A stretch of 64,000 nucleotides of DNA. Source: Sphingobium herbicidovorans (lineage in GTDB: Bacteria; Pseudomonadota; Alphaproteobacteria; Sphingomonadales; Sphingomonadaceae). The notes below the pieces were generated by a model. That model was not told the origin of the DNA. It worked only from the letters and a program-made list of their open reading frames with translations, and made no database searches. The DNA lies in NCBI RefSeq assembly GCF_002080435.1, contig NZ_CP020538.1, forward strand, positions 2,599,501 through 2,663,500. The letters are read 5' to 3'. Positions 43,711-59,164 of this stretch are shown piece after piece; the first letter of the stretch is position 1; each line of letters opens with the position of its first letter. The position numbers were made by a program, and so were the translations under genes.

Positions 43711-44127
43711 TCAGCCGCCGTGCGAGGGCGGAAGCTTGTGGAAGCGGGAGGATGCCCGGTTCAGGAAAGTTTCGGCTTGGATGATCGAGCCTGTGCGCTG
43801 GGCGGTCTGCGCCCATGCGGACAGGGGAAAGGGCGCGGCAAAGCCCAGGTCCCGTTCGATGCGAAGGCCAAAAGGCAGACGGATCGCCTCGATTTCCATC
43901 AGCGAGAAGCAGCCCAGTTCCGGGCACCCAAAGCCAAGGTCGGCGAGGCCGAAGAGGGTGTCGCCGTTCTCATACAGTTCCGTCGCCAGCCAAGTCGCTG
44001 CGCCAACGGGGTTGAAGAATTTGACGACCGGGGCGGGATCATGAAGCCGGTCATCATGCTGAGCCTCCATGCTGGCCGCGAAATTGGCTGACAGCGCGGC
44101 GCGCAGTTCGGGGGTGAGGAGGATCAT
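43711..44127 (-). CDS. DUF2958-domain protein
   Basis: About 138 residues starting MILLTPELRAALSANFAAS. It contains PAPVVKFFNPVGAATWLATEL and GFGCPELGCFSLMEIE, the conserved core of DUF2958. No biochemical function is known to me. The family is a regular neighbour of ArdC and ParB-like genes on mobile elements. The start overlaps the stop of the ardC C-terminal piece (ATGA), so it was translationally coupled to ardC before that gene was split. Confidence 0.85.
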   Translation of the reverse strand: MILLTPELRAALSANFAASMEAQHDDRLHDPAPVVKFFNPVGAATWLATELYENGDTLFGLADLGFGCPELGCFSLMEIEAIRLPFGLRIERDLGFAAPFPLSAWAQTAQRTGSIIQAETFLNRASSRFHKLPPSHGG

Positions 44128-44295
44128 GCGGCCAGCCTCCCGTCGCAAACGGCTTGTCCAGCCTCCCGATGCCGCGCGAGCAGCCATTCAGCAGCTTGGC
44201 TTGCCTGTCGGGCTGCCCGGAAGATGGCGCGTCCACGCGGGCCGGTGCTGCCGCGCACGGCGGGATCGTCGCTCATGTCGCCGCGCAACACCTCC
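44124..44295 (-). pseudogene. ardC piece 3 (C-terminus), beyond the RIT element
   Basis: Reads LEVLRGDMSDDPAVRG, then PRGRAIFRAARQASQAAEWL and ends DGRLAA. This is the C-terminal helix region of ArdC-type zincins (compare SWLQLLKDEPRAIFTAASKA in the intact ardC at 51857). It joins in sense to piece 2 (48197-48285), from which the RIT element separates it. The internal ATG at 44276 could look like a 50-codon gene but is not needed. Confidence 0.75.
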
Positions 44296-44343
44296 AGTAA
44301 TCGCGAGGTGACAGTAATGTGAAGGAACGGAGTTCGGGCTGCG
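44296..44343. repeat. RIT inverted repeat, left
   Basis: Reverse complement of 48123-48170 with three mismatches. The outer end is AGTAATCGCGAGGTGAC. Confidence 0.9.
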
Positions 44344-44382
44344 CTACTCTGCGGCGATCCGAGCCCCGTCCTGCACATTATT

Positions 44383-45384
44383 TCAGAGGGTATCGAGCCA
44401 GGCGAGCAGGCTCGCATCCCGCTTCCATGACGGCTGACACGCTGCTGCTGGAACGCCGACGTGTTCGAGCGCCTTTCGCTTGGTTTCCAGATTGGCTTGG
44501 GCGTAGTGGCTGGTCGTATCGAGGCTGACGTGCCCGAGCCAACTGCGGATGACGGTAATATCGACGCCGGACGAGACGAGGTGGACAGCGGTCGCATGGC
44601 GGAAGCTGTGCGGGGTCACGTGCTTCGACCGCAGCGTGGGGACTATCTTAGCGGCGGCCTGGACGTATGATGCGAGTTTGAACCGTACACCCGATGCGCC
44701 AAGCGGTTCGCCATAGCGATTGACGAAGAGCCGATCGCTCGGTGCCCTTGGCTGCCTGTCCAAGAGTTTCTTCAACAACGTCACCGTTTCCGGCCAGAGC
44801 GGACTGATGCGTTCCTTACGCCCTTTGCCGTAAAGGCGCACGCAATGCGGCGCTTCGAACCGGATCGCATCGGGACGTAAATCGAGCGCTTCCTGGATGC
44901 GTGCGCCGCTGTTGTACAGGAAGGATAACAGCGCGTGGTCACGCATTCCCTCCAGCGTTGATCGGTCGGGTTGTGCGAGGATCGCTTCGACCTCATTCGG
45001 CTCAAGATAACAGGGCGCAGGGATCGCTCCCCGTTTTATCGGGACGGCAAGAACCTCGGCGCATTGGGCGATATATGTTGGCTCTTTACCCGCCACGAAG
45101 CCGAAGAAGCTGCGGATGGCGGCAAGCCGGCAGTTGCGCGTGCCGATCGTGCCTTTCCGCTCATGTTCCGCATGGGCCAGGAACGCGCCGAGCTCACCGG
45201 CGGTGAGATCGGCCAGCGCAACCGCCGCTACTCCACCACCTTTTCGTGCAGCGACGAACCGGAGGAACAACCGCCAGGTGTCACGATAGGACCGGATGGT
45301 ATGGACGGACGCGTTGCGCTGCTCGGCCAGCCACTCATGGAAGAAGGCGCGCAGCAGGGCGGGGAACGGATCGATCTTTCTCAT
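44383..45384 (-). CDS. RIT tyrosine recombinase, third gene
   Basis: About 333 residues: SAM-like N-terminal core-binding domain (ASVHTIRSYRDTWRLFLRF) and catalytic domain with Arg in YNSGARIQEAL, HSFRHATAVHL (HxxR), and WLGHVSLDTTSHYAQ (His and nucleophile Tyr). All catalytic residues are present. The start at 45384 (MRKIDPF) overlaps the stop of the second gene. The longer upstream frame is inside that gene. Confidence 0.9.
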   Translation of the reverse strand: MRKIDPFPALLRAFFHEWLAEQRNASVHTIRSYRDTWRLFLRFVAARKGGGVAAVALADLTAGELGAFLAHAEHERKGTIGTRNCRLAAIRSFFGFVAGKEPTYIAQCAEVLAVPIKRGAIPAPCYLEPNEVEAILAQPDRSTLEGMRDHALLSFLYNSGARIQEALDLRPDAIRFEAPHCVRLYGKGRKERISPLWPETVTLLKKLLDRQPRAPSDRLFVNRYGEPLGASGVRFKLASYVQAAAKIVPTLRSKHVTPHSFRHATAVHLVSSGVDITVIRSWLGHVSLDTTSHYAQANLETKRKALEHVGVPAAACQPSWKRDASLLAWLDTL

Positions 45385-46745
45385 GCCCGCGCCTCCTGCG
45401 TTATATTGAGGCAGGCGGCGCCGATCATGCGGAACCTCTCGCTTGCTTCCTGCATCAGGTCCTGCGTGACCGTGATGTAGACCAGCGTCGAGTTGATATC
45501 CCGATGCCCAAGATAAGTTGCAAGGAACGGCAGCCTGTCCTGGGGATTGATGCCGGACCGATACCATTGAAGCATCCGGTTCACGACCATCGAGTGCCGC
45601 AGGTCATGGATGCGCGGTCCGGTTTTTCCCGATGGTGGTTTGAACCCAGCACGGCGAAGGATATCGACAAGCATCCAGCTAACCGCTGCGGGGCTGTAGC
45701 GGTTATTGGATTGGTCGTGCCAGAACAACCCCGATTGGGGATACTGCGGCCCGCCGGCACGCCCTCTATCCTCGATATAGGCACGCAGTTCGACCATCAC
45801 GCTATCGGGCAACGGCAAGATTCTGGTCTTGAAGAACTTCGTTTCGCGGATTGTGATCGTACCGTTTTCGAGGTCCACGTCCCCAAGGTCGAGGCGTGCT
45901 ATCTCACTACGGCGCAGCCCCGCGCAATAGGCCAGCAGCAGCATGGTATAAATGGCCATTGGCCGCAGCGGCGCGCGCGGTGATGGGTAGGACCGCGCGA
46001 TGTCCAACATGCGCTGCACATCGGCGGGGCTGTAAATATGCGGCTTGCGATAATGCCGTGCCACTTCCTTCAGCGGCCGTGTATTGGGCCGACGCACTGG
46101 CAGGCTCGGGTCCCGATGCCGGAGAGCCTTGGCCAATGCCTGTTTGAGTCTTTCGCATTCGGCCGCATGATTGCGGGTGGACTTGGCCTCCGCCCAATGT
46201 TCCAGCATCACCGCTAACGGCTTGGTTGCCAGCTCCGGATTCGCCTGGAGGAACCGATCGAACCGAAGGAACCATGCGCGTTGGGTCGTATAGCGATAGC
46301 CCCTGTTGCGCATCAGCGCGATATGATCGCGCATGATCTCGCCAAGCACGCTGCCGAAGGGCTTGGGCCGACGCAGTGCGGCAAGAGCATGATCCGGCAT
46401 AGGTGCTATCAGCGCCCGCCAGATTGGCTTGCTATGTTCGACGCCGTATTCGCTGCGCAGGTCCGCGATGGGGTTGCGGGCGATCAGGTTCACTTCGACC
46501 AGATGGTCGAGAAAGCGATCAACGATCCGGGTACGATGCAACAAGGTGGAGGGGTGCCAGCGCGCTCCCCATTCCCGCAGCCACGCCTCCAGTGTCGACC
46601 GGTCGATGACCGGATGGCGCTCAGCCACTTCCCGGAAGCCATTCAGGACCTGGCGATAATAAATGTGGCTGATCTTGCTCCGCAACCGCAGCGTCGCCAG
46701 ATACCTGGTGATGACGGCACGATCAGGATTGGGCAACGCGGTCAT
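45381..46745 (-). CDS. RIT tyrosine recombinase, second gene
   Basis: 454 residues. Catalytic motifs are YCAGLRRSEIARL (Arg I), HDLRHSMVVNRML (HxxR) and YLGHRDINSTLVYITV (His, Tyr). It overlaps both neighbours by ATGA, so the three are made in fixed ratio from one message. Appears intact. Confidence 0.9.
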   Translation of the reverse strand: MTALPNPDRAVITRYLATLRLRSKISHIYYRQVLNGFREVAERHPVIDRSTLEAWLREWGARWHPSTLLHRTRIVDRFLDHLVEVNLIARNPIADLRSEYGVEHSKPIWRALIAPMPDHALAALRRPKPFGSVLGEIMRDHIALMRNRGYRYTTQRAWFLRFDRFLQANPELATKPLAVMLEHWAEAKSTRNHAAECERLKQALAKALRHRDPSLPVRRPNTRPLKEVARHYRKPHIYSPADVQRMLDIARSYPSPRAPLRPMAIYTMLLLAYCAGLRRSEIARLDLGDVDLENGTITIRETKFFKTRILPLPDSVMVELRAYIEDRGRAGGPQYPQSGLFWHDQSNNRYSPAAVSWMLVDILRRAGFKPPSGKTGPRIHDLRHSMVVNRMLQWYRSGINPQDRLPFLATYLGHRDINSTLVYITVTQDLMQEASERFRMIGAACLNITQEARA

Positions 46746-47977
46746 GCCAGCACCTCCGATCCCGGCACATCAAGAGCGATTGCCCTCAGATCCTCGGTGG
46801 CCAGCTTGAGATAGGGGATTGTGGATTCGCTCGATCGATGTCCGAGCAGGTCGCCGATCACCTTTTGCGGCACCGACGCGCGCAGCAGTTCGACGGCCCT
46901 GGCGTGGCGGAAGATGTGAGGGCCGCATTTTCCTGGCGGCTTGATCCCGGCAGCCCACAGCCGCCGTCGCACTTCGCTATGCAGGTCTTGCAGGGGCCGG
47001 TACGGCGCACGCGAGCGGATAAAGATTTCCCGCCTGTCTGTCTCAGGGCGTCCATGCCGTAAATAGTCGAGCAATGCCTCGCCAACCGGCGCCATCAACG
47101 GCAGGTACGAACAAGCGCCGGTTTTTGTATGCCGGATGCGCAAGGATTCCGCACGCCAGTTGACGTCCTCCAACAGGAGATTGCGGATTTCACCGGAGCG
47201 CAGCCCATAGGTCGCCAGCAGTTGCAATATGGCATAATCACGCAGCCCTTTGGGCGAGGTGTCGCGCCTCGTGATTTCCAGGACGGCCGCAATCTGGTCA
47301 CGGCCCAATGTCGAAGGCACGCCTTCATAGGCGTACAGCACCGGGCCTACGACATGACCCGTGAGATCGGCGGCGACGTACCCCATGCGGTGCATGTAGC
47401 GCAGCAGCGAGCGAAGGCGTTCAGCGACATCCTTTAAGGACCGACGGCTCAGACCCGGCGCGCGCATGTCCATGTAGAGATCGATGTCCCGCACGCTCAG
47501 TTCCATGACGCTCGCCGTTCCGCCGTGATCGAGCTGCCATGCCAGAAAGTGACGCGCTTCCCACATCAGCGCGTAGATACTTGCACGGGCCAGGCCGCGG
47601 TCCTCATGCAGCCAGCGATCATATTCGCAGCATATCGCGTGCCGAACCGTCGCCTCTGGTCCGATCACTTCCGGTTCAGGCGGCCATTTGCCTTGGGCGA
47701 GGCGCAGCAACGCGTGGATTCCTGAGCGAGGGATCGCGTGCCACCGTGACGCGGGTGCTCGGTCATGACGCTTGCGAAAGCACCGGATTGCGTGGTGCAG
47801 ATATTGTTCGATCTGGGGCGGCTTCACCGCCGCCACGTCCAGCTTCCGCCGTGCCAGGTATTGGAGAAAGCCGCGCGCGTAGCTGCAATAATTGGCCGCT
47901 GCCACCGGGCTATATTTCTGTCGGGCAAGGTCTTCCGCAAGCCTGGCGATCAATTCTTCATCGGGACTTAGCATCAT
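46742..47977 (-). CDS. RIT tyrosine recombinase, first gene
   Basis: About 411 residues. The ATG at 47977 (MMLSPDEEL) is preceded by GAGGAG, so it is preferred over the longer frame to 48034. Motifs are TYGLRSGEIRNL (Arg I), HIFRHARAVEL (HxxR) and LLGHRSSESTIPYLK (His, Tyr). First gene of the trio, transcribed from near the right inverted repeat. Confidence 0.9.
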   Translation of the reverse strand: MMLSPDEELIARLAEDLARQKYSPVAAANYCSYARGFLQYLARRKLDVAAVKPPQIEQYLHHAIRCFRKRHDRAPASRWHAIPRSGIHALLRLAQGKWPPEPEVIGPEATVRHAICCEYDRWLHEDRGLARASIYALMWEARHFLAWQLDHGGTASVMELSVRDIDLYMDMRAPGLSRRSLKDVAERLRSLLRYMHRMGYVAADLTGHVVGPVLYAYEGVPSTLGRDQIAAVLEITRRDTSPKGLRDYAILQLLATYGLRSGEIRNLLLEDVNWRAESLRIRHTKTGACSYLPLMAPVGEALLDYLRHGRPETDRREIFIRSRAPYRPLQDLHSEVRRRLWAAGIKPPGKCGPHIFRHARAVELLRASVPQKVIGDLLGHRSSESTIPYLKLATEDLRAIALDVPGSEVLA

Positions 47978-48122
47978 TGGCTCCTCAGTCGGTTCGACGA
48001 CCGCTGAGGTTCGCAACGTACTGGCTCCAGTCAAATAATGCGGATCCTTCCGCCTTCCGTCAGCAATGAAAAATAATGCTCAGCACTGTAGTTCGATTAT
48101 CGCTGAAATTCTGCGGTTTTAA

Positions 48123-48170
48123 CGCAGCCCGAACCTCGTTCCTTCACATTACCGTCACCTCGCGATTACT
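48123..48170. repeat. RIT inverted repeat, right
   Basis: Partner of 44296-44343. It begins inside as CGCAGCCCGAAC and ends outside as GTCACCTCGCGATTACT. Confidence 0.9.
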
Positions 48171-48196
48171 CGCCTAATGTCGAGCTGCCCATTAGG

Positions 48197-48285
48197 TCAA
48201 CCATGATCCGATATAGTCCGCATGACGCACGGTCGGAACGATGCCCAGCGCCGCGCACAGGAAAGCCGATCCCATTTCGGCCACA
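48197..48285 (-). pseudogene. ardC piece 2 (middle, 29 codons)
   Basis: Reads AEMGSAFLCAALGIV, then HADYIGSW, the segment that in ArdC follows the EELVA helix (compare ASFLLADLGIAHEP and HAAYIASWL in the intact ardC at 51857). It is bounded by the mer-island end on one side and the RIT region on the other. Upstream inside the island an ATG at ~48334 is in frame with it. Confidence 0.75.
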
Positions 48286-48298
48286 TATCCTGACAGTC
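48286..48298. repeat. Left terminal inverted repeat of the mer island
   Basis: TATCCTGACAGTC. It pairs with 58365-58377 in inverse orientation with two mismatches. Confidence 0.6.
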
Positions 48299-48338
48299 CA
48301 GCCCAAAATGGCGGTTGGAAGGTGAAAACCATCGGTTG

Positions 48339-48539
48339 CCTCCAGCACTGCCCAAAAGCCCCATGGCCTCCCCCGAGGCGGGGGTGGGCGGCGAGAGCGA
48401 CCGGAGAGGCCTGCTGAAGCGGCGGGCTGCACCCGCAGGGGCGAAATGAAATGGAGCAGCCCGGCGAAGCCGAGGCTTGCAGCGCGCCGCGGCGGGCCTA
48501 GCAGGGAGCGCCGACCACTCCCGCATCGAGGGAGAGGCC
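48339..48539 (-). repeat. Copy A of a GC-rich ardC leader sequence (inside the mer island)
   Basis: Diverged copy of 59171-59376. Shared blocks in order include CTGCCCAAAA, GCGGGGGTGGGCGGCGA, GCAGGGGCG, GCCGCGGCGGG and GGGAGAGGCC. On the minus strand it ends in GGAGGCAACCGATG, a ribosome site and start codon at the same position as the true ardC start in copy B. No protein is supported inside it. Confidence 0.75.
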
Positions 48540-48662
48540 AAAAAATCGGAGCCGCCGCGCAAGCGGCGTCCGCTTAATGGCGGGCGACAGCCCGCATCGA
48601 CATGCATCGCGAAGCGGCCGATCGCGCGAGGGATCGGCCGCCATGGCAGTGGCGCTCGTGCG

Positions 48663-50012
48663 TTAAGTCAGCATGTAGCCGACGTCGGAGGCGCCGGTCG
48701 GATAGGCGAACATGGTGGAGCGAAGATCGGCCGCGGTGAGGCCGTGGCGGATTGCCAGACCGAAAACGTTGATTACCTCGTCGGCGTTCGGCCCCACGAG
48801 ATGCGCGCCGAGGATGAGGTCCGTGTCCTCGTCGATCAGCAGCTTATGGCCGTAGACCGGCTCGGCGAGGCGGCGGGCGGTGAACCAGTCTGGCGTCGAG
48901 GCTGCGTTGACCCGGAGCGCGACGCCGCCGCGGCGCGCCGCCTCCTCTGACAGTCCGACGGCGGCGATCGGCGGCAGAGTGAAGGCCACGCTCGGCACGC
49001 CGCGATAGTCCGGCTGGTGCGTCGGGCCATCCAGGAGGTTGGCGGCAACTACCTTGGCATCGTGGCTGGACACCGGCGTCAGCCGCGGCCCGACTCCGGC
49101 AGCGTCGCCGGCGGCATAGACCCGCGGGTTGGAAATGCTCCGCAGATGCGCGTCGAGCTGCAGGCGCCCGTCCTGCACCGCCACCTCGCCGGCGGACAGG
49201 TCGAGCGCCTTGAGGTCAGGACCGCGCCCGGCGGCATGAACGACGAGATCGGCGGCGACGCTGAGATCAGGCTCGCCCTGGCGCTCGGCGTGGACCAGCA
49301 GACCGCTCCCGCTGCGCTCGACCCGGGTAACGGTGGCACCGGTCTCGACGCGGATGCCGAGCGCCTCGAACCGGGGCGTCAGCCAGCCCACCAGGTCGGG
49401 ATCGAAGTGCGGCAGGAGCCGCTCGGCCCGCTGTAGGATGGTGACCTCTGCGCCCGCTCGGGCCGCCAGATGCGAGAACTCCGCAGCGACATAGCCGCCG
49501 CCGATCAGCACGATCCGGCGCGGCAGGGCCTGAAGCTCCAGGAACGCATCGCTTGTGCTCACCAGATCTTCGCCCGGAATGCCGAGCGGGACTGGACGCG
49601 CGCCGCTGGCGATCAGGATATGGCGGGCCCGCAATGTCCGGCCTTCCACCACGATCGTGTCTGGGCCGGCAAAGCGAGCAACACCGTGTAATGCGTCGAC
49701 ACCGAGCTCGGCGTAGCGGTGCGCCTGCTTGGCGGGGATCGGATCGGTGAAGGTCCGCTTGAACGCCATCAGGTCGGGCCAGTCGATCGCCAGCGTGCCG
49801 TCGACGCCATGTCTGGCCATGCGCCTTGCCGCGTCGATCGCTTCCTCGCCGCTGACCAGCATCCTCTTGGGATCGCAGCCACGCAGCGCACAGGTGCCGC
49901 CGAACGGACGGTGATCGATGACGGCGACGGACCATCCAGCGGCACGGACCCGGCCGACCGCGACCTGCGCTGCCGTGCCACTGCCGATGACGATCAGGTC
50001 GTAGGAAGCCAT
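48663..50012 (-). CDS. MerA-like FAD/NAD(P)-dependent disulfide oxidoreductase (atypical mercuric reductase)
   Basis: About 449 residues. FAD-binding DLIVIGSGTAAQ, redox-active cysteines in GGTCALRGCDPKRM, NAD(P)-binding IVLIGGGYVAAEFSHLA, second FAD motif VYAAGDAAG, and C-terminal dimerisation domain ending YPTGASDVGYMLT. In the mer operon it would reduce Hg(II) to Hg(0). It lacks the N-terminal heavy-metal domain and, notably, the C-terminal Cys-Cys pair of classical MerA. The start MASYDL at 50012 overlaps merB. The function is inferred mainly from position. Confidence 0.8.
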   Translation of the reverse strand: MASYDLIVIGSGTAAQVAVGRVRAAGWSVAVIDHRPFGGTCALRGCDPKRMLVSGEEAIDAARRMARHGVDGTLAIDWPDLMAFKRTFTDPIPAKQAHRYAELGVDALHGVARFAGPDTIVVEGRTLRARHILIASGARPVPLGIPGEDLVSTSDAFLELQALPRRIVLIGGGYVAAEFSHLAARAGAEVTILQRAERLLPHFDPDLVGWLTPRFEALGIRVETGATVTRVERSGSGLLVHAERQGEPDLSVAADLVVHAAGRGPDLKALDLSAGEVAVQDGRLQLDAHLRSISNPRVYAAGDAAGVGPRLTPVSSHDAKVVAANLLDGPTHQPDYRGVPSVAFTLPPIAAVGLSEEAARRGGVALRVNAASTPDWFTARRLAEPVYGHKLLIDEDTDLILGAHLVGPNADEVINVFGLAIRHGLTAADLRSTMFAYPTGASDVGYMLT

Positions 50013-50773
50013 GGTCGCATCTCCATCCGCATCGGCGCAAAAATCGCGCGCCCAACCTCGAGCGCTTCGGCCAGGCACAGACGAATGCCGTCATCGGCTC
50101 CGACCGGACCGCTCGCGCACCAGGCCGCCAGATGATCGTCATCGCAGAAGAAGGCCTGCAAGGTGCAGAGCGACGATGCCGCGCAGCCACTGGCATAGCG
50201 ACGGCCGGACCAGACGACGATCGCGCCCGGCTCAACCTCTTCCAGCTCGCGGCCGCGGCTGGGGGTATGGATGGCGAGCGTGCGCCGGCACTGGCGGCAG
50301 GCCGAGCGGATCATGCAGTCCCGCTCCAGCATGGCGCCGATCCCCAACGCGTCGATGGCGCACATGGCGCTCATGGTCACTCCGCTGACTTCGACTTGAT
50401 GTTCGCTGGGGCCGTCGGTGAACGGATAGGCGCCGGTCACCCGGCCCGCGCCGTCGAGGACCACGAGATCGCGCCCGGCGAGCCGCTGCAGGGCCGAGCC
50501 GACCTCGCCGGAGGGGAGTCCCGATGCGGCGGCGATCTGTGCCGGCACCGGCGAGCGACCATCGGCAGCATAGGCTTGAAGCACGGCGCGCCGGACCCGC
50601 TCCTCGACGCCGTCCATCCCGCGCCACTTCGAACCGATGAACGCCGCGAACAGTGCCGTCAGGGCTGCGCGGGCGCTGGGTGTTGTGACTGCGCTCCAGT
50701 CCGGGACAACGGCACCGCCGGGAAATGTAACCGTCGATCCAAAGGCGGCTTCAGCGGATGATGCGCGCGCCAT
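49994..50773 (-). CDS. merB: Organomercurial lyase MerB
   Basis: 259 residues. MerB-type fold with N-terminal winged helix (PVPAQIAAASGLPSGEV) and the catalytic Cys138-Asp141 pair in SAMCAIDALG, plus Cys203 in SLCTLQAFFCDDDHLAAW. It cleaves the carbon-mercury bond of organomercurials, giving Hg(II) for reduction. It starts 13 bases after the cysteine-rich gene and overlaps the merA-like gene by 19 bases. Broad-spectrum mercury resistance is thus expected. Confidence 0.88.
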   Translation of the reverse strand: MARASSAEAAFGSTVTFPGGAVVPDWSAVTTPSARAALTALFAAFIGSKWRGMDGVEERVRRAVLQAYAADGRSPVPAQIAAASGLPSGEVGSALQRLAGRDLVVLDGAGRVTGAYPFTDGPSEHQVEVSGVTMSAMCAIDALGIGAMLERDCMIRSACRQCRRTLAIHTPSRGRELEEVEPGAIVVWSGRRYASGCAASSLCTLQAFFCDDDHLAAWCASGPVGADDGIRLCLAEALEVGRAIFAPMRMEMRPWLPTT

Positions 50774-50785
50774 CGCCCGCCCTCC

Positions 50786-51010
50786 TCAGCCGCAGCACGC
50801 CTTGCCGCCGCTCTCCTGGATCGGCGGACAGGGCACGTCGCCGTAGGAGCAATAGACGCAGCAATCGCCCGGCTTGGGCTTGAGGACCGCGCCGCAACCC
50901 CGGCAGTCGTAGAAATACTGGCAGGCATTGGTCGGCATGGTCTCCGTCGCCCGATGACCGCAGTGGGGACAGGTCAGCGTCGAGCGCAGCTCGGGGGTGG
51001 CATCAGACAT
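50786..51010 (-). CDS. Small cysteine-rich protein with GDCC...CSYG motif, mer operon
   Basis: 74 residues with 11 cysteines: CPHCGH zinc-ribbon half, CQYFYDCRGCG second half, then GDCCVYCSYGDVPCPPIQ and a terminal CCG. The pattern suggests a zinc ribbon followed by a soft-metal site. The family turns up in mer operons, but I know of no assigned function. With no merP present it may pass Hg(II) from MerT to the cytosolic enzymes (inference). The ATG at 51010 overlaps the merT stop by 8 bases. Confidence 0.75.
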   Translation of the reverse strand: MSDATPELRSTLTCPHCGHRATETMPTNACQYFYDCRGCGAVLKPKPGDCCVYCSYGDVPCPPIQESGGKACCG

Positions 51011-51362
51011 AGCGATAGCCTGCCCAGAGCAGGGCCGCACCGAGCAGCAATCCGATGAGCGTGAGAACACGCATCCAGCGCGGCGTGCATATGCCGCCCG
51101 GCCCACAGCGCGCCGCCGTAACTTGCTGGCGCAACAGCAGCGCCGCGCCGGCAAGCAGGCACAATGCGCCAATGAGGAGAAGCGGCGTGCGATACGGCGC
51201 GGCGACAATGGCCACGCCGCCGAGCCAAGCTGCGCCGATCCCGGCGGATGCGAAGAGGATCGGCAGCGCACAGCAGGCGGCGACGCCGAACGCCGCAGCG
51301 ATCCCCGCCAGCGTGAGCGTGGCGGTGCCGATCCCCTTAGGCGGGCTTGGCGTCTGGGTCAC
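51003..51362 (-). CDS. merT: Mercuric transport protein MerT
   Basis: About 119 residues with three membrane helices. The cysteine pair in the first helix (AACCALPILFASAG) and the second pair in the loop (RCGPGGIC) are the Hg(II)-relay sites of MerT. The start is GTG at 51362, preceded by AAGGAG at 6 bases. First gene of the mer operon. No MerP follows. Confidence 0.9.
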   Translation of the reverse strand: MTQTPSPPKGIGTATLTLAGIAAAFGVAACCALPILFASAGIGAAWLGGVAIVAAPYRTPLLLIGALCLLAGAALLLRQQVTAARCGPGGICTPRWMRVLTLIGLLLGAALLWAGYRYV

Positions 51363-51391
51363 GGGCGACTCCTTGTGGCGGGCATTGAGCT

Positions 51392-51422
51392 GTCCTAACA
51401 TCTGTAGCGACTACAGACTCAA
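51392..51422 (-). promoter_or_regulatory. MerR-controlled merT promoter with 19-bp spacer
   Basis: On the minus strand TTGAGT (51417-51422) and TAGGAC (51392-51397) are separated by 19 bases. The spacer contains the dyad CTGTAG-N3-CTACAG (51402-51416). The over-long spacer and central dyad are the hallmark of MerR-activated promoters. merR lies divergently on the other side. Confidence 0.8.
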
Positions 51423-51436
51423 GAGGTATTTTGGGG

Positions 51437-51853: not shown

Positions 51854-51856
51854 GCA

Positions 51857-52720
51857 TTACGGCTGTCGGGCGTGCATCCAGTCGGCTGCCGCCTGCGCCT
51901 TGCTCGCCGCGGTGAAGATCGCCCGAGGCTCGTCCTTGAGCAGTTGCAGCCAGGAGGCGATGTAGGCCGCATGATCGGGTCGCGGTTCGTGCGCGATCCC
52001 AAGATCGGCGAGCAGGAACGATGCGGTCAGTTCGGCGGTCGCTTCCTCCATGGCGAGCGCGTGCCTGGTCCACTTGGCGCTGAAATCCCGGTCAAGCCGA
52101 TGGGCTGCGCCACTGGCATGAGCCGCTTCGTGAATGTGGGTGGCGTAGAAGCCGTGGGCATCGTGGAAGGCGCTGAAATCCGGCATGTGAATGCGGTCTT
52201 CGGCGATATGATAATAGGCGCTGGCCGAGCCGTAGACAGTATCGATGCCGAGCGCGGCGATGAAGGCTTCGGCGGCGGCGAGGCGTTCGCTCTCAGGCAG
52301 GTCCGGCGCCGGTTCGGGCGCGTAGCCATCGACCTGATCGGCGTTGAACAGGCTGAACGCCTTGGCGAAAAGCCGTCGATGGTCGTCATCGCCGCCGGCG
52401 TCGTCACCCTTCGCGCGAAACTCCTTCCAGAGGACGCCGAGGCTGGCGTGCTCGCCCTTGCGGACCTGCGCGCCGAGCGCCTGCCACTGGCGATAGGTGC
52501 CCCAGACCCCGCTCGCGTAGCCGCTGCCATAGGCGGCCGCCCAGAGCGAGATCGTATTTATGCCGCGATAGGGCTTGCCGCTGGCGACGTTGGTCGGGCG
52601 GGTGACGTCGGCGCCAAAATGATGCCACGGCATGCGCCAGGTGCCGGTGCCGGCTTCGATGGCGTCGACGATCGCTTGCGTGACGCGAGCGTAGACGTCT
52701 GAGCGTGGTGAGGCTGACAT
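51857..52720 (-). CDS. ArdC-type antirestriction/zincin protein (intact, island-borne)
   Basis: 287 residues. N-terminal DUF1738 ssDNA-binding domain (SDVYARVTQAIVDAIE, GKPYRGINTISLW) and a C-terminal metallopeptidase domain with HIHEAAHASGA (HExxH) and DLGIAHEPRPDHAAYIASWL. ArdC proteins protect incoming DNA from host restriction during conjugation. The ATG at 52720 is chosen over the extended frame. Located between merR and the recombinases, converging on merR. It is the reference for recognising the split ardC in this window. Confidence 0.85.
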   Translation of the reverse strand: MSASPRSDVYARVTQAIVDAIEAGTGTWRMPWHHFGADVTRPTNVASGKPYRGINTISLWAAAYGSGYASGVWGTYRQWQALGAQVRKGEHASLGVLWKEFRAKGDDAGGDDDHRRLFAKAFSLFNADQVDGYAPEPAPDLPESERLAAAEAFIAALGIDTVYGSASAYYHIAEDRIHMPDFSAFHDAHGFYATHIHEAAHASGAAHRLDRDFSAKWTRHALAMEEATAELTASFLLADLGIAHEPRPDHAAYIASWLQLLKDEPRAIFTAASKAQAAADWMHARQP

Positions 52721-52889
52721 GATATGTTCTCCGTTCTCGCGCCGGGGACCATCCCCGGCGGCGGAGGCCCGTTCGCGCCGGGCACAGGGGGGCTCGCGCA
52801 CCCGTCAGGGCCGCAGCGAAGCGAAGGACGGCGAAGCCGTTGCGCGGGCGCGCCGACCGGCGCAGGACTCCGCCAACAGCCGGGGTGGT
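52721..52889 (-). other. GC-rich leader of the island ardC
   Basis: About 170 bases between the third recombinase stop and the ardC start. It contains GGGGACCATCCCC, a short palindrome at ~52744-52756, and a GC-rich character like the other two ardC leaders, but only weak sequence similarity to them. No gene is supported. Confidence 0.4.
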
Positions 52890-55052
52890 CTACGGCGCGG
52901 GAGGGTCGATCCCGGCAATCACCGCGGTCAGGCGATCAAGCTCGCGCTGGAGCGCCTGACGCTGGAGGTCGGAGATGCGCCGTTCGCGTAAGTGCGCCCG
53001 GGCATCGGCCGCCGCACGTTCCCAGGCCGGTCTGTGGCGGGCGGTGATGCAGGCGTTGGGGCAGCGGGTCGGTTCGCACAGGGCGGTAAGCGGCTGCGCG
53101 GGATCGGGGGTCGTCACGCGCTTGAGGCAGAGCGCGGTCGCGGGATCGAAGAAGCAATCCGCGAGCGGGCCGACATGGAAGGTGCGCGCGACGCTGGCGA
53201 GCATGACGCGCAGGCGGGCCCGATCGGCGATCATGGCGGGCAGTGGCCCGAGCTTAACGGCGGCATCGTCGAGGGTCCGCGCGATGCGTGGTCCCGCCGG
53301 TCCGCCGAGTGATGCGCCGCCCTGCCGCCGGTCGAAATAGTCCAGCAGATCGTCAATCTGACCGAGCCGGCGCTGCGCCTCGACCTCTGCGCGAAACCCC
53401 GATCCACTGGTCCCGGCATAGCCCTCGAAAGCGGCGACCGAGGCATGCTTGTACTGGATCATGCCGGCGATGGTGCCGAACGGACGGTTGGCGATGTGCC
53501 ACGCGATGGTGCGCCGGAACTGCCGCGTCGTGATGCGCCACGGCTTGCCATCGGGGCCGGGTGGGATGACCGGCGCATCGGGGCTGCCGAAGACGGTGTT
53601 GAGGTGGTCGCGGAAGGCGTTGAGCTGGCGGACCACCTCGCTCGACAGATGCGTCTTGGTGACAGCGCGGGGACGAAGCACCGGCCAGAGCGTGTCGCTT
53701 CCAGTCTTCCGTGCCGCGTGTTCCGACAGCCGTTCGAGCACCGTGATCGCCTCGGCCACCGGTTCGATCGTCACCCAGCTCGCCGACTCACCGGCGCTCG
53801 ATCGGCGCTTGTAGAGGGTCGATCGGACGCGTTGCCGCTCGATCAGGCCGTCTTCGCTGCGCGCGATCGAGAGGCAGCCGCGCCGCATCGCCTGGACCTC
53901 GCAGTCGCGCATGCCGGTCAGATAGGCGCATACGATATAGGCGGCGGCCTGCAGCATCCGCTCCTCGATCGCTAGGGTCTTCACGTCGAAGCGGGCACGC
54001 CATGGCCGACCGCTCTCGGGAGCGATCGAGATCGGCGTGTCCATGCCGCCGACCTCGGTACCAAGCGATGCAACCGCTTCGCGAATGACATCCGGTGCGC
54101 CGGTAGTGAGCATGAGATGCATGGCCGGCTCGGCGACGGCATCGATGCCGGCATGCAAATGGAGGAGATGGGCGTTGATCGGCGGGGTTGCATCCCCGGT
54201 GAGGGGATCGATGCGCGTGGCGCCGTTGTGTGCCGTCGTCCAGATGGGCACGCCGCGTCCTTGCCGGGCTCGGCGCGCGAGATAGCGCTCGAGGCGCGCG
54301 CGCTGCCGCAGGCGGCGCTCTGCATCAGGCAGTCCGCGTTCGGCGGCGAGCAGCCGAGCGCGGACTGCCTCGAGCCGATCGAGCGCGACCCGAGCCGCCA
54401 GAATATCGGTCGCGAAGGTCGTGACATAGCGCAGCGACCAGGCGAGCAGCGGCGTGACAATCTCCTCCGGCATGCGTGGGGTGCGGTTCTCGCGCACATG
54501 CCGATATCCGGCGACGCGCGCAGCCGCTTGCCCGGCCCACGGCTCGAACCCGAAACCGCCTCCAGGCAGGTGATCCCGGAGATGGTAGAGATCGGTGACC
54601 ACCTGCAAGAGCTGGCCGACGATGACGGGGCGCCGCGCTGAATCATCCCGCAGGTGGCGCGCATAAGCGTCGATCAGCGCCTGATCGATGCGGCCCAGGT
54701 CGAGCCGCCCAAGCCGCTCGCGCGCGAAGGCGAAGAACCGGCGAGCCCGGTTGAATGCCTGTCGGATGCTGGCGGGCGGCAGCTTCGGGTGGTAGCCGGG
54801 AAGACCGACGTTGAGGCGGGCGTAGAGATAGGCGCGCATTGCCGCCTGCACATCGGCATGTTCGAGCACGTCGAAATGCACGGTGACGTGGCAGCGCCGA
54901 GCGTTCTCGCGGAAGACGGCGGGACCGAGATCCCAGGTCGGGTCGCCGACGTGCGACAGCTCCTCGCGGGCATGGCCCGCCTTGAGCGGCGCGCTCGCCA
55001 GCACAGGGCGATCGTCGAACGCGGGCACGAGGGCATGGACGGGCGTGGTCAT
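52890..55052 (-). CDS. Large tyrosine recombinase, third of island trio (720 residues)
   Basis: An N-terminal ~250 residues without clear domain is followed by a recombinase catalytic half: Arg in YLTGMRDCEVQAM, RQFRRTIAWHI where the usual HxxR histidine is replaced, and YKHASVAAFEGYAG supplying the His and nucleophile Tyr at normal spacing. The C-terminal tail has a cysteine cluster (CFFDPATALC; CEPTRCPNACITARH) that could bind zinc. It overlaps the second gene by ATGA. Twice the length of ordinary integrases. Confidence 0.8.
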   Translation of the reverse strand: MTTPVHALVPAFDDRPVLASAPLKAGHAREELSHVGDPTWDLGPAVFRENARRCHVTVHFDVLEHADVQAAMRAYLYARLNVGLPGYHPKLPPASIRQAFNRARRFFAFARERLGRLDLGRIDQALIDAYARHLRDDSARRPVIVGQLLQVVTDLYHLRDHLPGGGFGFEPWAGQAAARVAGYRHVRENRTPRMPEEIVTPLLAWSLRYVTTFATDILAARVALDRLEAVRARLLAAERGLPDAERRLRQRARLERYLARRARQGRGVPIWTTAHNGATRIDPLTGDATPPINAHLLHLHAGIDAVAEPAMHLMLTTGAPDVIREAVASLGTEVGGMDTPISIAPESGRPWRARFDVKTLAIEERMLQAAAYIVCAYLTGMRDCEVQAMRRGCLSIARSEDGLIERQRVRSTLYKRRSSAGESASWVTIEPVAEAITVLERLSEHAARKTGSDTLWPVLRPRAVTKTHLSSEVVRQLNAFRDHLNTVFGSPDAPVIPPGPDGKPWRITTRQFRRTIAWHIANRPFGTIAGMIQYKHASVAAFEGYAGTSGSGFRAEVEAQRRLGQIDDLLDYFDRRQGGASLGGPAGPRIARTLDDAAVKLGPLPAMIADRARLRVMLASVARTFHVGPLADCFFDPATALCLKRVTTPDPAQPLTALCEPTRCPNACITARHRPAWERAAADARAHLRERRISDLQRQALQRELDRLTAVIAGIDPPAP

Positions 55053-56836
55053 GCGCGTGCCTCCGGCGGCAGATAGAGCCGTTCGCTCCCCATCTGCCGG
55101 CGCGCTTCGGCGATAACGGCATCGGAGAAGACCGGCAGGACCTGGACCGTGATCCGGGTGTGGACGCGGCCGAACTTGGCGGCCCAGTCGCTCGCCGGCA
55201 GGCTGCATCGCTGCTCTTCGACGAACGCGAGAAAGGCGAGGATCGCGGGGAGCTTGCGCGCGGTGATGACGGCGTTGGGACAATCGAGGCAGCCCCAGAA
55301 GGGCTGCGCGCAGGGCGAACCGGGCTCGGCGAAAGGACTGCTATGGAAGCCCGCGCAGGCGGCGAGCCAGACATCCTGTTCGCCGTCGAGCACCGGACCC
55401 ACCGTATCAGCCGACATCAGCGACGCGACCTGTTCGGGCGCTTCGCGCAGCGCCTGCTCGGCGGTGGGTGGAAGCACGGTCGGCATCGCCGCAGCGACCG
55501 CTGCGCGGAAGGCATCGGCGACGGCCGCCTCGTGCAACGGCCGGAGCGACGGCAGATCGGCATAGTGGCGCGCCGCAACCTCGCGGGTGTGACCGACCGC
55601 GAAGCGGGCCATATGCCCCTCGGTCTTGGTGTACCATAACGCCTTGTGGGTCTTGCGCAGCCGGGAAAGCAGCAGATGGAGCGGCTTCCCATCATCGCCG
55701 GCGATACCATGGCGACGAGCCCAGGCGGCGAGTTGGAACTTGGGATCGACGATGCCGGCGCGAAGGCCGCCAACGTTGTGATAGAGCCAGAGGCAATCGT
55801 CGGTCAGATGCTCGCGTGCGACGGCGGTGACGTCGATCAGGCGACGCATGAGGCCGCCGGGTGTGCCGCTACCACCATCGCGGACCCGCATGCTCTTGTG
55901 CTCGGCACCGCGGGCGCGGCGCTTCAGATAGCGCAGCTCCACCGTGCCGGCATGCGGGTTGGTGAGACAATCCACGGTCAGCGTCTTCAGGCACTCCGGC
56001 TCGAGGCCGGTATCGAGCGTGAGCAGCACGAGCAGCGCCGGCAGATCGCGCGCGAGCAGATGATGGCGGCCATGCAGGTCGTCGATGAGCGTGCTGATCG
56101 GCAATCCGCGCCGCATGCGCATGAAATAGAGGCGCTTCAGCGCGGGCTGGTCTGCGACGATAAAGCCCTGCCGCGCGATGATCGCTTCGACATCGGCGCG
56201 CGCCCTGGCGACGACAGGGTCGCCCTCATCAGTGCGGTCGTCGGCGCCGAGGCGGCGAAGCATCGCTTCGATATCGGCCCTCGCGGCGTCGCGCAGCGCG
56301 CGGGCGACGAAGGGGCTATAGGCATCGCGCGGGGTCGAGCGGCCCGCCGAAGTGGCCAGCGTGTAGCGCAGCCGCTCATGCAGGTCGGGCGCGATCCGAT
56401 CGGGCCGGTCTGCCTCGATCGCGCGCAGCGTGTTGATGACCTTGCCGACCGTTATGTGCCGGTGGATCGCGCCCATCCCACGCCGTTCGAGCGCGGACGC
56501 AAAGCCATCGATATGGACTGCGCGCAGGTCGTTGACGCCGGTCACCTCCGGCGCATCATCGCCAAGCCAGGCGAAGAAGTGGCGATAGACCTGAACATAC
56601 TGCTTGATGACGCTGGCCGCACCGATGGGGCCGCCGAGCGCCGCCGATCGACGCAGCGCACCGGCGAAAGCGATGGCGAGTGGGCGAGGATCGAGCCCGG
56701 TCATATCGACTAGGACCGTTCCGCCATGCCGCGCCTCGATGGTGAACTTGAGGCCGAGCACAGGATCGGGCTGCGATCGCTCCGGCGTGATCGGCGCAAA
56801 GGCGACAGGCCGGCCCTTGCGGGGACGCCCGCTCAT
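55049..56836 (-). CDS. Large tyrosine recombinase, second of island trio (595 residues)
   Basis: Recombinase-like C-terminal half, but Arg I is replaced (DTGLEPECLKTL) and the HxxR site reads LLSRLRKTHKAL. The final His and Tyr are present (VGHTREVAARHYADL). A cysteine group near the C-terminus (CAQPFWGCLDCPNAVIT) resembles that of the third protein. It is probably an accessory subunit or catalytically altered. Starts at 56836, overlapping the first gene by ATGA. Confidence 0.8.
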   Translation of the reverse strand: MSGRPRKGRPVAFAPITPERSQPDPVLGLKFTIEARHGGTVLVDMTGLDPRPLAIAFAGALRRSAALGGPIGAASVIKQYVQVYRHFFAWLGDDAPEVTGVNDLRAVHIDGFASALERRGMGAIHRHITVGKVINTLRAIEADRPDRIAPDLHERLRYTLATSAGRSTPRDAYSPFVARALRDAARADIEAMLRRLGADDRTDEGDPVVARARADVEAIIARQGFIVADQPALKRLYFMRMRRGLPISTLIDDLHGRHHLLARDLPALLVLLTLDTGLEPECLKTLTVDCLTNPHAGTVELRYLKRRARGAEHKSMRVRDGGSGTPGGLMRRLIDVTAVAREHLTDDCLWLYHNVGGLRAGIVDPKFQLAAWARRHGIAGDDGKPLHLLLSRLRKTHKALWYTKTEGHMARFAVGHTREVAARHYADLPSLRPLHEAAVADAFRAAVAAAMPTVLPPTAEQALREAPEQVASLMSADTVGPVLDGEQDVWLAACAGFHSSPFAEPGSPCAQPFWGCLDCPNAVITARKLPAILAFLAFVEEQRCSLPASDWAAKFGRVHTRITVQVLPVFSDAVIAEARRQMGSERLYLPPEARA

Positions 56837-58182
56837 ACGCCTTGCGGCCCCGGCAGTAACGCCAGCAGCTCCTCGACGGCCGCGTCCACCGTATCGGCGC
56901 GGGTCGCGATATGGTCGAGGTAGATATAGGTGGTGGTGAGGCTGGCGTGGCCAAGCAGGCGTTGCACCTGTTGCAGCGGGTCGCCCAGGATCAGCCGATA
57001 GCTCTCCACCGGCCCCACCGGCAATGCCGCTTCGCGCAGCCGCTGCTGGATCAGCAAGGCGAGCATATGGACTGCGAAGGCGTGGCGAAGCTGGTGCGGG
57101 CTGATCGACAGCGGGAAGCCGTTCTGTGCGCACCGCTTGCAGGCGCGGGTGAAGATCACCTCCCACGAGTTGGGGCGGACAGGCTGGCCGACCTCGGTCA
57201 GCCATAGCGCCGCCGGCTCGCGGGGCGTTCCATCCTCGTCGCACAGGATCAGGCGGCATCGTTCCTCCGGGGTGCAGATATCGCGCATGCGGTCGAGACC
57301 GGCGCGGGTGACAGGGATCGGTCGGTCGAAGCTGGCCGCACCGTCGCGCGCGGCGAACTTGGCCACGCCCGCGGCGCGCTCGACCGCGACATAGGCGGCG
57401 ATCTGACGAAGCAGCCGGCGTGGGACCAGAACGCTGCGTCCGCGGTCGCCCTTGGTGAGCGGCGGCGGAAGGGGCAACCAAAGTTGTTGGACGTCACCGT
57501 CCTCGCGGTCGATCGCCGCGAGCTCGACGGTGAGCAAGCCCGACGCCTCTTCGAGGCGCAGGCCGGTGGTGACGAGAAGATCCGCGAACAGCGCGTTGCG
57601 CAGCCCATTACGGTCGCGAGCGCCGGGGCGCTCCGTGCCGTCAGGGGTGAGCCCGCGCAGGCCGACCTCGCGGAAAATGCGGTAGTCGTCCATCGTGACG
57701 AACCGGACATCCGATCGCCTGGCGACACGTTCATAGGCATCGTTGCGCGCCGCGATCATGCCGCGACGGCCACCTTGCGCCGGTCGCCACACGGCGCGGC
57801 GGCTGAACGGCGCGTCGGCGATCAACCCTTGCTGCTCGCCCCAACGGTAAAGGCGATCGAGGCTGGCGACGGCGCGGTTCCAGCTTGCCGCCGTTATCCG
57901 GTGATCGGCATCGTCGCGGCGTCGCTCACGATGATAGGCGTCGACATCGTCGCGGGTCGCAGCCCACACGGTCTTGCCGCAGGCATCGAGAAAACGAAGC
58001 CAGACTACGACATCATAGGCGTAGGCGCGAAGCGAGTGCCGCGAGCGGACGCCCGACAGCGGCAGGTCGAGAAAGAAGCGATCCAGATCGGGATCGTAGA
58101 GCGCGTCGTCGCGCTGGATCAGCGGCACATGCGCATCGAGGCCCCTGGCCTCGCGACGCTCGCAAACAGTAATGATCGACAC
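56833..58182 (-). CDS. Tyrosine recombinase, first of island trio (449 residues)
   Basis: Complete catalytic set: TTGLRLEEASGLL (Arg I), SPHQLRHAFAVHML (HxxR) and LLGHASLTTTYIYLDH (His, Tyr). The N-terminal core-binding domain has HSLRAYAYDVVVWLRFL. It is likely the main strand-exchange enzyme of the island. First gene after the right end, behind an inverted repeat at 58259-58308. Confidence 0.88.
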   Translation of the reverse strand: MSIITVCERREARGLDAHVPLIQRDDALYDPDLDRFFLDLPLSGVRSRHSLRAYAYDVVVWLRFLDACGKTVWAATRDDVDAYHRERRRDDADHRITAASWNRAVASLDRLYRWGEQQGLIADAPFSRRAVWRPAQGGRRGMIAARNDAYERVARRSDVRFVTMDDYRIFREVGLRGLTPDGTERPGARDRNGLRNALFADLLVTTGLRLEEASGLLTVELAAIDREDGDVQQLWLPLPPPLTKGDRGRSVLVPRRLLRQIAAYVAVERAAGVAKFAARDGAASFDRPIPVTRAGLDRMRDICTPEERCRLILCDEDGTPREPAALWLTEVGQPVRPNSWEVIFTRACKRCAQNGFPLSISPHQLRHAFAVHMLALLIQQRLREAALPVGPVESYRLILGDPLQQVQRLLGHASLTTTYIYLDHIATRADTVDAAVEELLALLPGPQGV

Positions 58183-58258
58183 CGGCGCGAAGCCCTCCCC
58201 CCGGACCCCCCACCCGGAAGCTGACCTTCACACCGATGCGCGCTATGGCCCGGCAGCT

Positions 58259-58308
58259 ATCAGGCTGGCCTCCGCCAGCTCTTGGGTCAGCGCTACGGCC
58301 AGCCTGAT
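58259..58308. repeat. 12-bp perfect inverted repeat near the island right end
   Basis: ATCAGGCTGGCC (58259-58270) and GGCCAGCCTGAT (58297-58308) with a 26-base loop, between the first recombinase start and the island end. It may be a recombinase arm site or a control hairpin. There is no T-run. Confidence 0.55.
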
Positions 58309-58364
58309 TACTGCCTACCGTGGGCGTCCATCGCCGACCTTACTGCAATGTTGCGGACGGCGCA

Positions 58365-58377
58365 GACTGTCCAGATA
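58365..58377. repeat. Right terminal inverted repeat of the mer island
   Basis: GACTGTCCAGATA, inverse of 48286-48298 with two mismatches. The ardC coding sequence resumes just beyond. Confidence 0.6.
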
Positions 58378-59164
58378 ACGCGACCAGTTCCTCGCGGGCA
58401 TAGTCCTTCGTCCCGAAGCTGGTCCCGAATGTCCGGGCAAGACGCTTGGGATGGCCTGTCGCGTGAATCAGTTCGTGCAGACAGGTGCGATAATAGTCGA
58501 CCTGCGCATAGAAAGCCGGTTGCGGCGGCACCTGCACAAAGTCTGCTGACGGAACATAATAGGCCTCGTCGCCGCCGATCCGGAAATCAACGCCGCTGGC
58601 GGCGATCACCTCCTCGGCGACCGGGATGATCTCACGTCCCGGGAGGGGAAGGGGATCGCGCGCAAGGCCGGGGTCAAGCCCCTCGCATTGCGCTACATTG
58701 AACAGGGTGAAGCGCTTGAGGAAGGCTATGGTCCTGGCTTGCCCACCTTCCGCAGCGACCCCCGCCTTCTCCTCGTCGGTGACGAACCGGTCGGCGTAGG
58801 CGACCATCGTCCCCTGTTCGCCCTTGCGAACATTGCCGCCTGCCTGCAACGCTTGGCCATAAGTCAGCCAGCCCTGCGAGGGCCAGCCGTTCGCGATGAC
58901 CGCGCCCCAGAGCATGAGAATATTGACGCCCGAATAGGGGCGACCGGTGATGGCGTTGCGGGGCAGAGCAGGTCCAGCGCAGGCGGTGCTGTCCCATGGC
59001 TGAACCCATGGCAGGCGTCCCTCTTCCAGCTGCGATATGATTTTGGCTGTGACTTCCTCGTAGAGGCTTTTGCGGTTGGTGCCTTCACCATCTGCTGCCC
59101 GCAACTTGCGTTCCTTCCTCGCTCCGGGAGCGGAACGGGCCTTTCCGTTGATCATCTGGTTCAT
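58378..59164 (-). pseudogene. ardC piece 1 (N-terminal three quarters), cut by the mer island
   Basis: About 260 codons from MNQMINGKAR (GGAGG upstream at 59164): DUF1738 domain (YEEVTAKIISQLEEG, GRPYSGVNILMLW) and zincin motif CLHELIHATGHPKRL. It ends in YAREELVA, where the next residues of ArdC should be xxxxAFLCAxLGI. These are found 10 kb away at 48197-48285. The frame continues a few codons into the island to a stop at 58340. Present product would lack the C-terminus. Confidence 0.82.

Follow-up and report, generated by a model that had tools for sequence, protein, structure and literature searches.

The class of mechanism considered here is already known from Tn554, SE (strand-biased circularizing integrative), GInt and RIT elements. 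For a transposon that carries a gene resembling its own target we have seen one precedent in the parts of the literature consulted, namely Tn552-II, a Tn554-like and site-specific tnpABC transposon of Staphylococcus aureus with a 'target-gene-like' gene, which its authors suggest may rescue disrupted target genes; a short att sequence is imported from the donor via a circle (PMC12486829). Transposition of RIT elements had not been reproduced in the laboratory as of 2023 (PMC10214605). Here we describe an ardC gene of Sphingobium herbicidovorans that has been divided by two transposons of this general kind. It lies in a stretch of 64,000 nucleotides (contig NZ_CP020538.1, positions 2,599,501 to 2,663,500), which we call the window and to which all coordinates refer unless another locus is named. 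ArdC of R388 broadens the host range of conjugation, resembles Spartan and IrrE, and binds single-stranded DNA (ssDNA) (PMC7213743).

Our preferred reading, to which we assign a probability of about 0.7, is that the larger insert belongs to a family of tyrosine-recombinase transposons (genes A, B and C, usually an ArdC gene, and optional cargo) similar to Tn554, SE and GInt elements, which target ardC and supply a partly recoded replacement. The target, the ends, the differing hexamers at the junctions, the multicopy spread, the separate lineage of the carried ArdC and its changed codons can all be read from the sequences. We refer to this family as family 1 and to its copies as islands; L-numbers denote loci other than the window (WIN), and G000 is the window's own genome.

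An ardC gene in three pieces

On the minus strand, which carries all features of this section, the order is DUF736, an ardC N-terminal piece, an element of 10,094 bp, a middle piece, a RIT element, a C-terminal piece, DUF2958 and ParB. The preliminary description, made from the letters of the window, had proposed that the three pieces are one ardC gene, and this is borne out. Aligned separately and without joining to the intact ArdC loci L110, L111 and L136, they fall in the same order on each. On L110 the N piece (59164-58379) matches at 982-1740 (67% over 253 amino acids), the middle piece at 1738-1818 (96% over 27), the C piece at 1843-1947 (74% over 35) and DUF2958 from 1950 on (64%); on L111 and L136 the C piece reaches 83% over 24 and 59% over 34 amino acids, respectively. 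The overlap of the N and middle pieces on L110 is one codon, the Ala of the crossover hexamer, which is found on both sides of the island. Because the pieces map in order on the same intact relatives, they belong to one ArdC subtype in its original gene order, and an assembly from different ArdC subfamilies is ruled out. Six parallel cases in the same genome exclude a chance split. The supposed coupling of the C piece to DUF2958 (43711..44127) was likewise seen, as an ATGA overlap at 44127-44124, and a DUF2958 gene follows the uninterrupted ArdC of all three relatives.

The gaps had been taken for a 10.1-kb mer island and a 3.9-kb RIT element. The two inserts stand, but 'mer island' is an incomplete name that overlooked the element's own ArdC gene (51857..52801), and the exact borders had to be corrected to 48285-58378 for the island and 44298-48168 for the RIT, plus a 20-bp module at 48175-48194. 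The N-terminal piece (58379..59164, 262 codons) is identified by Pfam ArdcN (8.3e-38), by MPTase-PolyVal at profile positions 3-82 only and by the L110 alignment; it holds the ssDNA-binding domain, HExxH and the metal-ligand Glu. By junction reading it ends in the left 6-bp crossover hexamer GTCGCG (58379..58384, codons V-A), and its frame continues into the island as LSGQSAPSATLQ followed by a stop. The middle piece (48195..48284) consists of GTGGCC (48284-48279), which most likely came in with the island, the host codons EMGSAFLCAALGIVPTVRHADYIGSW, and TTGACC (48200-48195), which we take as native; the codons preceding the RIT are W-L-T. Beyond the RIT (44124..44297) lie its right hexamer CTGGAG (44297-44292) and the C-terminal piece (44291-44124), which compared with L110 has about 12 additional residues (MSDDPAVRGSTG, 44291-44240). 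The C piece had been said to start with L-E, whereas CTGGAG is most likely RIT-borne and not a pair of host codons.

The inserted element

The island (48285..58378, minus strand, gene order A-B-C-ArdC-mer) runs from TTATCTGGACAGTC to GACTGTCAGGATAT, and these ends form an imperfect inverted repeat. Genes A, B and C overlap as one operon. A (56833..58182, minus strand, 449 amino acids) is a tyrosine recombinase by Pfam (Phage_integrase, 1.7e-11) and alignment, with a complete catalytic motif; at the Arg I position B (55049..56836, minus strand, 595 amino acids) reads TGLE, with Glu at the expected Arg, and C (52890..55052, minus strand, 720 amino acids) reads TGMR. B and C have no Pfam match, and a sequence search of the PDB with E up to 1 gave no relatives. 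Their AlphaFold models (mean pLDDT 70 and 68) place Tn1549-integrase and Cre folds first, weakly Cre/Tn1549-integrase-like for B (best E 0.008) and weakly Cre-like for C (0.016), all above 0.001. Both are probably recombinases; given the missing Pfam matches and the weak fold E-values we use the word for them as probable, not proven.

The carried ArdC (51857..52801, minus strand, 314 amino acids, start uncertain) was recognised by Pfam, by its match to structure 6i89 and in the tree described below. It comprises ArdcN and a full MPTase-PolyVal domain with HExxH and the Glu ligand, and its target codons read EEATAE.

Repeated insertion at one codon

A DNA search of G000 revealed six family-1 elements in six different ardC genes. 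Two are of the mer type, with 0 differences over 10,094 bp, and four are of a 6.55-kb type without mer, which differ among themselves by two single-base gaps. All six are inserted at one ardC codon, EEL|VA|E, beside the metal-ligand Glu; no two of them share a left hexamer, and immediately outside the element the ardC flanks diverge. Profile searches gave 12 ArdcN matches, six broken and six intact and element-borne, and 18 MPTase matches, divided equally into whole domains, N halves and C halves. No uninterrupted backbone ardC was found in G000 by these two profiles, and by the MPTase profile none of the six element ArdCs is cut. In SE elements 6 bp from the left flank of the donor reappear to the right of a new copy. 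Between loci of G000 the hexamers of L010 match those of L008 and L009, and L009 matches L011, which could reflect codon constraint.

We then compared 91 loci, namely 80 from a scan of genome contigs (the best 80 of 268 confirmed loci, hence leaning to close relatives), five plasmid loci, five own-genome loci and the window. The left flank (36 bp) was readable in 71 of them and unreadable in 20. At 68 of the 71 readable flanks the codons up to and including the hexamer spell the ArdC motif EE(L/I/M)xA (EDLVA once), and 49 of these 68 host frames were long enough for alignment, L030 being a true ArdC only near the junction. Other ardC genes cut at the same codons thus occur both in G000 (six by islands, four by RITs) and across the survey, and the earlier suggestion that ardC is a preferred landing site is supported, the more so as two further families cut it at HExxH. 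The three exceptions are L015 (pTiBo542) and L091, where the element lies in another gene, and L051, at an unrelated site. The elements at L015 (8786) and L091 (7556) lack ArdC and share the DNA core GARGAACTG-6bp-GARMT (MLLEQHIEELRA), which suggests that family 1 recognises DNA rather than the gene as such.

ArdC is present in 53 of the 62 complete elements. The nine ArdC-less ones include all three at non-ardC targets (0/3 with ArdC; Fisher p 0.002 for carriage against target type, the copies not being independent). Where C and ArdC are both present the gap between them is at most 169 bp in 53/62 copies (89 bp in the window, 5 bp in L008) and 312-2541 bp in the other nine. Left and right hexamers differ in 37 of 51 copies, and the recurrence of GTNGCN is possible through codon constraint. 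Among six ArdC-less copies with both hexamers readable, L013, L015, L051 and L055 have equal ones, hence no sign of a move between different sites, and L083 and L091 have differing ones. Relatives of A occur in 156 of 72,556 plasmid records (E up to 1e-20). A search of 396 genomes of the order, which scored no more than four candidates in each, found them in at least 13 and gave four of the six G000 copies. In five draft assemblies (L043, L056, L060, L089 and L097) the contig begins exactly at the element's left end; these are probably collapsed multicopy repeats.

An identical (100%) copy of the window island is found at L007, and the copies L021, L023 and L067 are 99.98-99.99% identical over 10,094 bp, a degree of conservation indicating that the mer-carrying element has spread recently. 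The hosts of these three are Sphingomonas panni, Sphingomonas sp. MA1305 and a metagenome-assembled genome labelled Hyphomonas (by that label, a member of another order).

Lineage and target codons of the carried ArdC

Among 89 non-redundant ArdC N parts placed in a tree, element ArdCs (24 from family 1 and five from a second family introduced below) account for 29 of 30 rows in a single clade (support 100/99), and the ArdCs of host targets are scattered over the tree (14 changes). The thirtieth row, h_L078, is a family-2-type ArdC itself hit by family 1. At this nested locus (L078 7875-16510) the family-2-type ArdC lies beside a host ardC piece and is cut by the family-1 element. Two rows of the tree are long branches: h_L030, whose frame runs through another insert and which therefore does not represent a genuine ArdC N part, and the frame-shifted host piece of L008.

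The motif corresponding to the insertion site is EELIAE in R388 ArdC and contains E229 (position counted on the structure match 6i89), a metal ligand (PMC7213743), which places the crossover hexamer on codons two and three after the ligand. Host targets read EE or ED plus L, I or M in 49 of 49 cases. The target codons of the 61 readable family-1 ArdCs (L046 and L024, frame-shifted or cut, excluded) are EEATAE in 26, EECCVE in 16, EEICAE in eight, EEACAE in six, EELTAE in two, and EECSVE, EECLVE and EELVAE in one each; 60 of 61 are thus not EELVAE. For used sites (n=68, leave-one-out) the median of a position score over the left 15 bp is 19.0, for intact genes (n=18) it is 16.3 and for element ArdCs (n=61) 4.5; the score is confounded by coding constraint and by copies that are not independent. 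The 16 distinct element sites differ from used sites at p 1.5e-6, and element sites from intact ones at p 0.01. The changed codons may thus confer on the carried ArdC a partial immunity from the element's own recombinase; we infer no more than a partial effect because of the coding constraint, the dependent copies and the EEICAE scores, which lie near those of real targets.

A second family and RIT2 at HExxH

Family 2, in L149 and pLA1 (L017), encodes distant relatives of A, B and C (21-30% where aligned in L149). In both loci the trio has the opposite orientation and its insertion falls exactly on the HExxH codons CAYGAG; the other end of the element holds an ArdC of its own. In family 2 the ArdC is oriented opposite to the trio, and a small D gene encodes 147-148 amino acids in the two elements read. 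The same combination of trio, D gene (146-149 amino acids by annotated coordinates) and zincin/ArdC gene is seen in pCAR3, pML2037, MesoLjLa2 and pF2, on the basis of annotation, the tree and, for MesoLjLa2, tblastn. In MesoLjLa2 both families have inserted into one and the same ardC, and each of the two elements brings an ArdC. Within 9 kb of the relatives L161 and L163 (A2 identity 45% and 39%) there is no annotated ArdC. An A2 search of the 396 genomes, again with at most four candidates scored per genome, found relatives at 43-44% in at least two.

A different recombinase trio, RIT2 (about 3.1 kb), cuts the HExxH codons of three ardC genes in G405, all of which also hold a family-1 element. 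Relatives of RIT2 are present in G188 and G485.

The RIT element

The RIT of the window (44298..48168, minus strand) is bounded by terminal inverted repeats of about 51 bp (51 nucleotides, 92%) and encodes three recombinases on the minus strand (46742..48034, 45381..46745 and 44383..45567, the start of the last uncertain). Ahead of it (48169..48194, minus strand) lie the 20-bp module TAATGGGCAGCTCGACATTA (48194-48175) and the hexamer GGCGAG (48174-48169). G000 holds four near-identical copies, each at the S-W-L codons of an ardC also cut by an island and all laid out as hexamer, module, hexamer, RIT, hexamer. The window reads TTGACC, module, GGCGAG, RIT, CTGGAG; L010 and L011 read CTGGAG, module, GGACAG, RIT and then CTTTCG or CTCGAG; L007, where RIT and module are both inverted, reads CTCGCC, module, CTCCAG, RIT, CTGTCC. 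The inner and right hexamers of L007 are the reverse complements of CTGGAG and GGACAG of L010/L011, and the inner hexamer of the window is that of the left hexamer of L007. These matches fit a RIT that moves as a circle with two 6-bp crossover sites flanking the module. They also suggest that an L010/L011-like copy gave rise to that of L007, and L007 in turn to that of the window.

Relatives lie at ardC and elsewhere. At L168 (Sphingobium sp. YC-XJ3) a 73% relative has the same form and stands at the same ardC codons adjoining a family-1 ArdC, and its C-side flank matches intact ArdC C-termini by blastp (E 5e-5); both RIT flanks of L164, a relative at about 73% in the same region of ardC, match ArdC C-termini as well (blastp). 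A fifth RIT of G000, a 71% copy (L012 1634-5410), is not in an ardC gene; it has the same left flank as L166, annotated as strawberry-notch, and in L012, L165, L166 and L167 (the last three relatives at about 73%) a like module lies in or beside a strawberry-notch helicase gene. The short stretches fetched for L099-L103 and L105 (RIT-1 relatives of 53-70% protein identity) gave no convincing ArdC match, nor was there one beside the RIT relative of L170. The strawberry-notch and ArdC-less sites imply that not every RIT relative targets ardC. On the plasmids of Sphingomonas sp. MEA3-1 (L169 and L164), RIT copies lie between two inverted family-1 elements and between two opposed ardC C-termini, as might result from recombination between RIT copies.

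Proposed course of events and its rivals

Integration of a family-1 element would proceed through a 6-bp crossover within the codons that surround ArdC's third metal-ligand motif (EEL|VA|E). A, B and C would produce a circle that includes 6 bp from the donor site, as reported for Tn552-II and SE elements, and would integrate it into a new ardC. As ardC is a conserved gene of conjugative plasmids and similar elements, targeting it could keep the transposon on its vehicle, while the element's own ArdC would make up for the one broken and, through its recoded target codons, be partly spared by the element's own recombinase. The RIT would be another transposon specific for ardC, independent of the first, and would have cut the C-terminal remnant as well. 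Circle formation, vehicle preference, rescue by ArdC and partial immunity of the carried copy are what we infer from the comparison of sequences.

Several observations weigh against this account. Four of the six G000 copies lie on a 2.9-Mb contig, and the 156 plasmid records comprise 68 predicted non-mobilizable, 62 conjugative and 26 mobilizable plasmids, so that, in the sequenced state, the copies are not generally found on a vehicle. Of the 59 complete elements whose site is an ardC or was unreadable, six lack ArdC, which is thus not required for residence there. As the protease activity of R388 ArdC is dispensable for antirestriction in Pseudomonas putida (PMC7213743), the N-terminal fragment might still work and rescue be unneeded. 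Intact sites, too, score below used ones (p 0.004), and two of 18 intact ArdC rows (L112 and L124) lack the motif. The carried copy of L093 reads EELVAE, the eight EEICAE copies have site scores of 16-17, and two copies read EELTAE; a strict self-immunity is weakened by the good sites kept in L093 and the EEICAE group. Finally, 14 of 51 copies have the same hexamer on the left and on the right, which, with the recurrence of GTNGCN under codon constraint, leaves the donor-hexamer genealogy of the islands only suggestive.

The strongest rival holds that ArdC is a transposition factor, an ssDNA-binding, Spartan-like protease acting on single-stranded or protein-linked intermediates in place of ginD or srap. 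The likeness of ArdC to Spartan and IrrE and its binding of ssDNA (PMC7213743), and the single-stranded circle proposed for Tn552-II (PMC12486829), speak for such a helper; so does the space of at most 169 bp between C and ArdC in most copies, which could not accommodate a D gene as large as that of family 2, and equal hexamers are found in four of the six readable ArdC-less copies. We nevertheless consider it unlikely. Nine complete elements do without ArdC, of which L083 and L091, with their differing hexamers, have probably moved; family 2 has a D gene and an ArdC opposite to its trio; and the lack of ArdC in all three copies at non-ardC targets fits rescue better.

ArdC could instead be cargo that aids establishment against restriction in new hosts, the ardC target being a coincidental conserved DNA motif. 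The wider conjugation host range conferred by R388 ArdC (PMC7213743) and the recognition of DNA indicated by L015 and L091 are in keeping with this. It is hard to reconcile with one ArdC clade being carried by two recombinase families whose cuts in ardC fall at different codons, and with the altered target codons of most element ArdCs, and we regard this explanation, too, as improbable. A single interrupted ardC that was duplicated or recombined to give all six loci, as the near-identity of the islands within one genome might suggest, is rejected as most improbable, since the ardC flanks differ at once with no long shared stretch at the six left junctions, the N parts of the broken genes fall in different regions of the tree and no two left hexamers agree.

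Returning to a transposon family that supplies a replacement for its target, we tentatively go one step further, at somewhat less than even odds. The element may be a natural 'break and rescue' selfish element, which breaks the ardC of its vehicle and supplies a recoded ArdC, so that it becomes costly to lose; such a strategy can be likened to engineered rescue gene drives. Two recombinase families would then share one rescue lineage while cutting different catalytic motifs of ardC.

Other features of the window

Behind its ArdC the island carries a MerR-type regulator (51431..51853, plus strand) and, on the minus strand, a MerT-like protein below the Pfam cut-off (51003..51401), the alkylmercury lyase MerB (49994..50773) and a pyridine-nucleotide disulphide oxidoreductase that is probably MerA, a name derived from its neighbours (48663..50078). 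A frame of 161 amino acids inside the mer set (50786-51271) partly overlaps the MerT-like gene and has no Pfam match. The island tail (48339..48539, minus strand) resembles, at 79%, the region that lies before the broken ardC on its upstream side (59171-59376). This 315-type tail, 73-79% like that region, was found in 10.1-kb, 8.7-kb and 6.9-kb elements and is absent from the 6.55-kb type; judged by this resemblance it may put a promoter-like copy ahead of the C remnant and DUF2958. An Rfam scan of the window gave no match at the gathering threshold, no tRNA was found in it, and PADLOC had no match for eight proteins.

Significance and comparison with known systems

A transposon family is here linked with a gene that conjugative plasmids conserve for their establishment, and its members bring along a version of the very gene they disrupt; an ArdC-like 'cargo' can therefore be read as belonging to the transposition strategy. 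Insertion hexamers could serve to test the order and direction of moves, also for RITs. There is a warning for annotation as well: an 'ArdC-like ssDNA-binding' gene near a 'zincin-like' gene, a pair seen in annotated plasmids, can represent an interrupted target with its replacement close by. In a search of titles and abstract openings of the open-licence literature, ardC as a recombinase target, the carried ArdC clade and the two-hexamer RIT form were not found among the matches listed.

The comparisons that follow use parts of the published accounts, and for SE and GInt elements they are comparisons by description. Tn554 has two recombinases and TnpC; family 1 differs in its three recombinase-type genes. 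Tn552-II targets a YolD-like/CDS40-type gene with a 7-bp site and carries bla, whereas family 1 targets ardC with 6 bp; family 1 also differs in its three recombinase-type genes, its occurrence in many alphaproteobacterial records and its mostly altered target codons in the carried copy. SE elements resemble family 1 in the order of an ordinary recombinase, a motif-less partner and a large recombinase (intA, tfp, intB), in a 6-bp footprint and in few target sites. For a counterpart of their fourth gene, srap, there is no room between C and ArdC in 53 of 62 family-1 copies, and they are described in Gammaproteobacteria, unlike family 1 (PMC10214605).

GInts likewise have three recombinase genes followed by cargo, are target-specific and exchange strands with a 6-nucleotide stagger, and distant members may share one target, as here (PMC5385486). 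A small fourth gene like ginD is present in family 2 and would find no room in the same 53 of 62 family-1 copies. The protein without Arg I is the third in GInts and the second (B) in family 1, and the GInt targets named are ABC transporter, ssb and ribonucleotide reductase genes (PMC5385486), compared with ardC here. Finally, the smaller insert of the window is a RIT as described, with three adjacent overlapping recombinase genes, a length of about 3.5-3.9 kb and inverted-repeat ends (PMC3414803); compared with the known RITs of that account it is set apart by a fixed ardC codon target and by two crossover hexamers around a 20-bp module.

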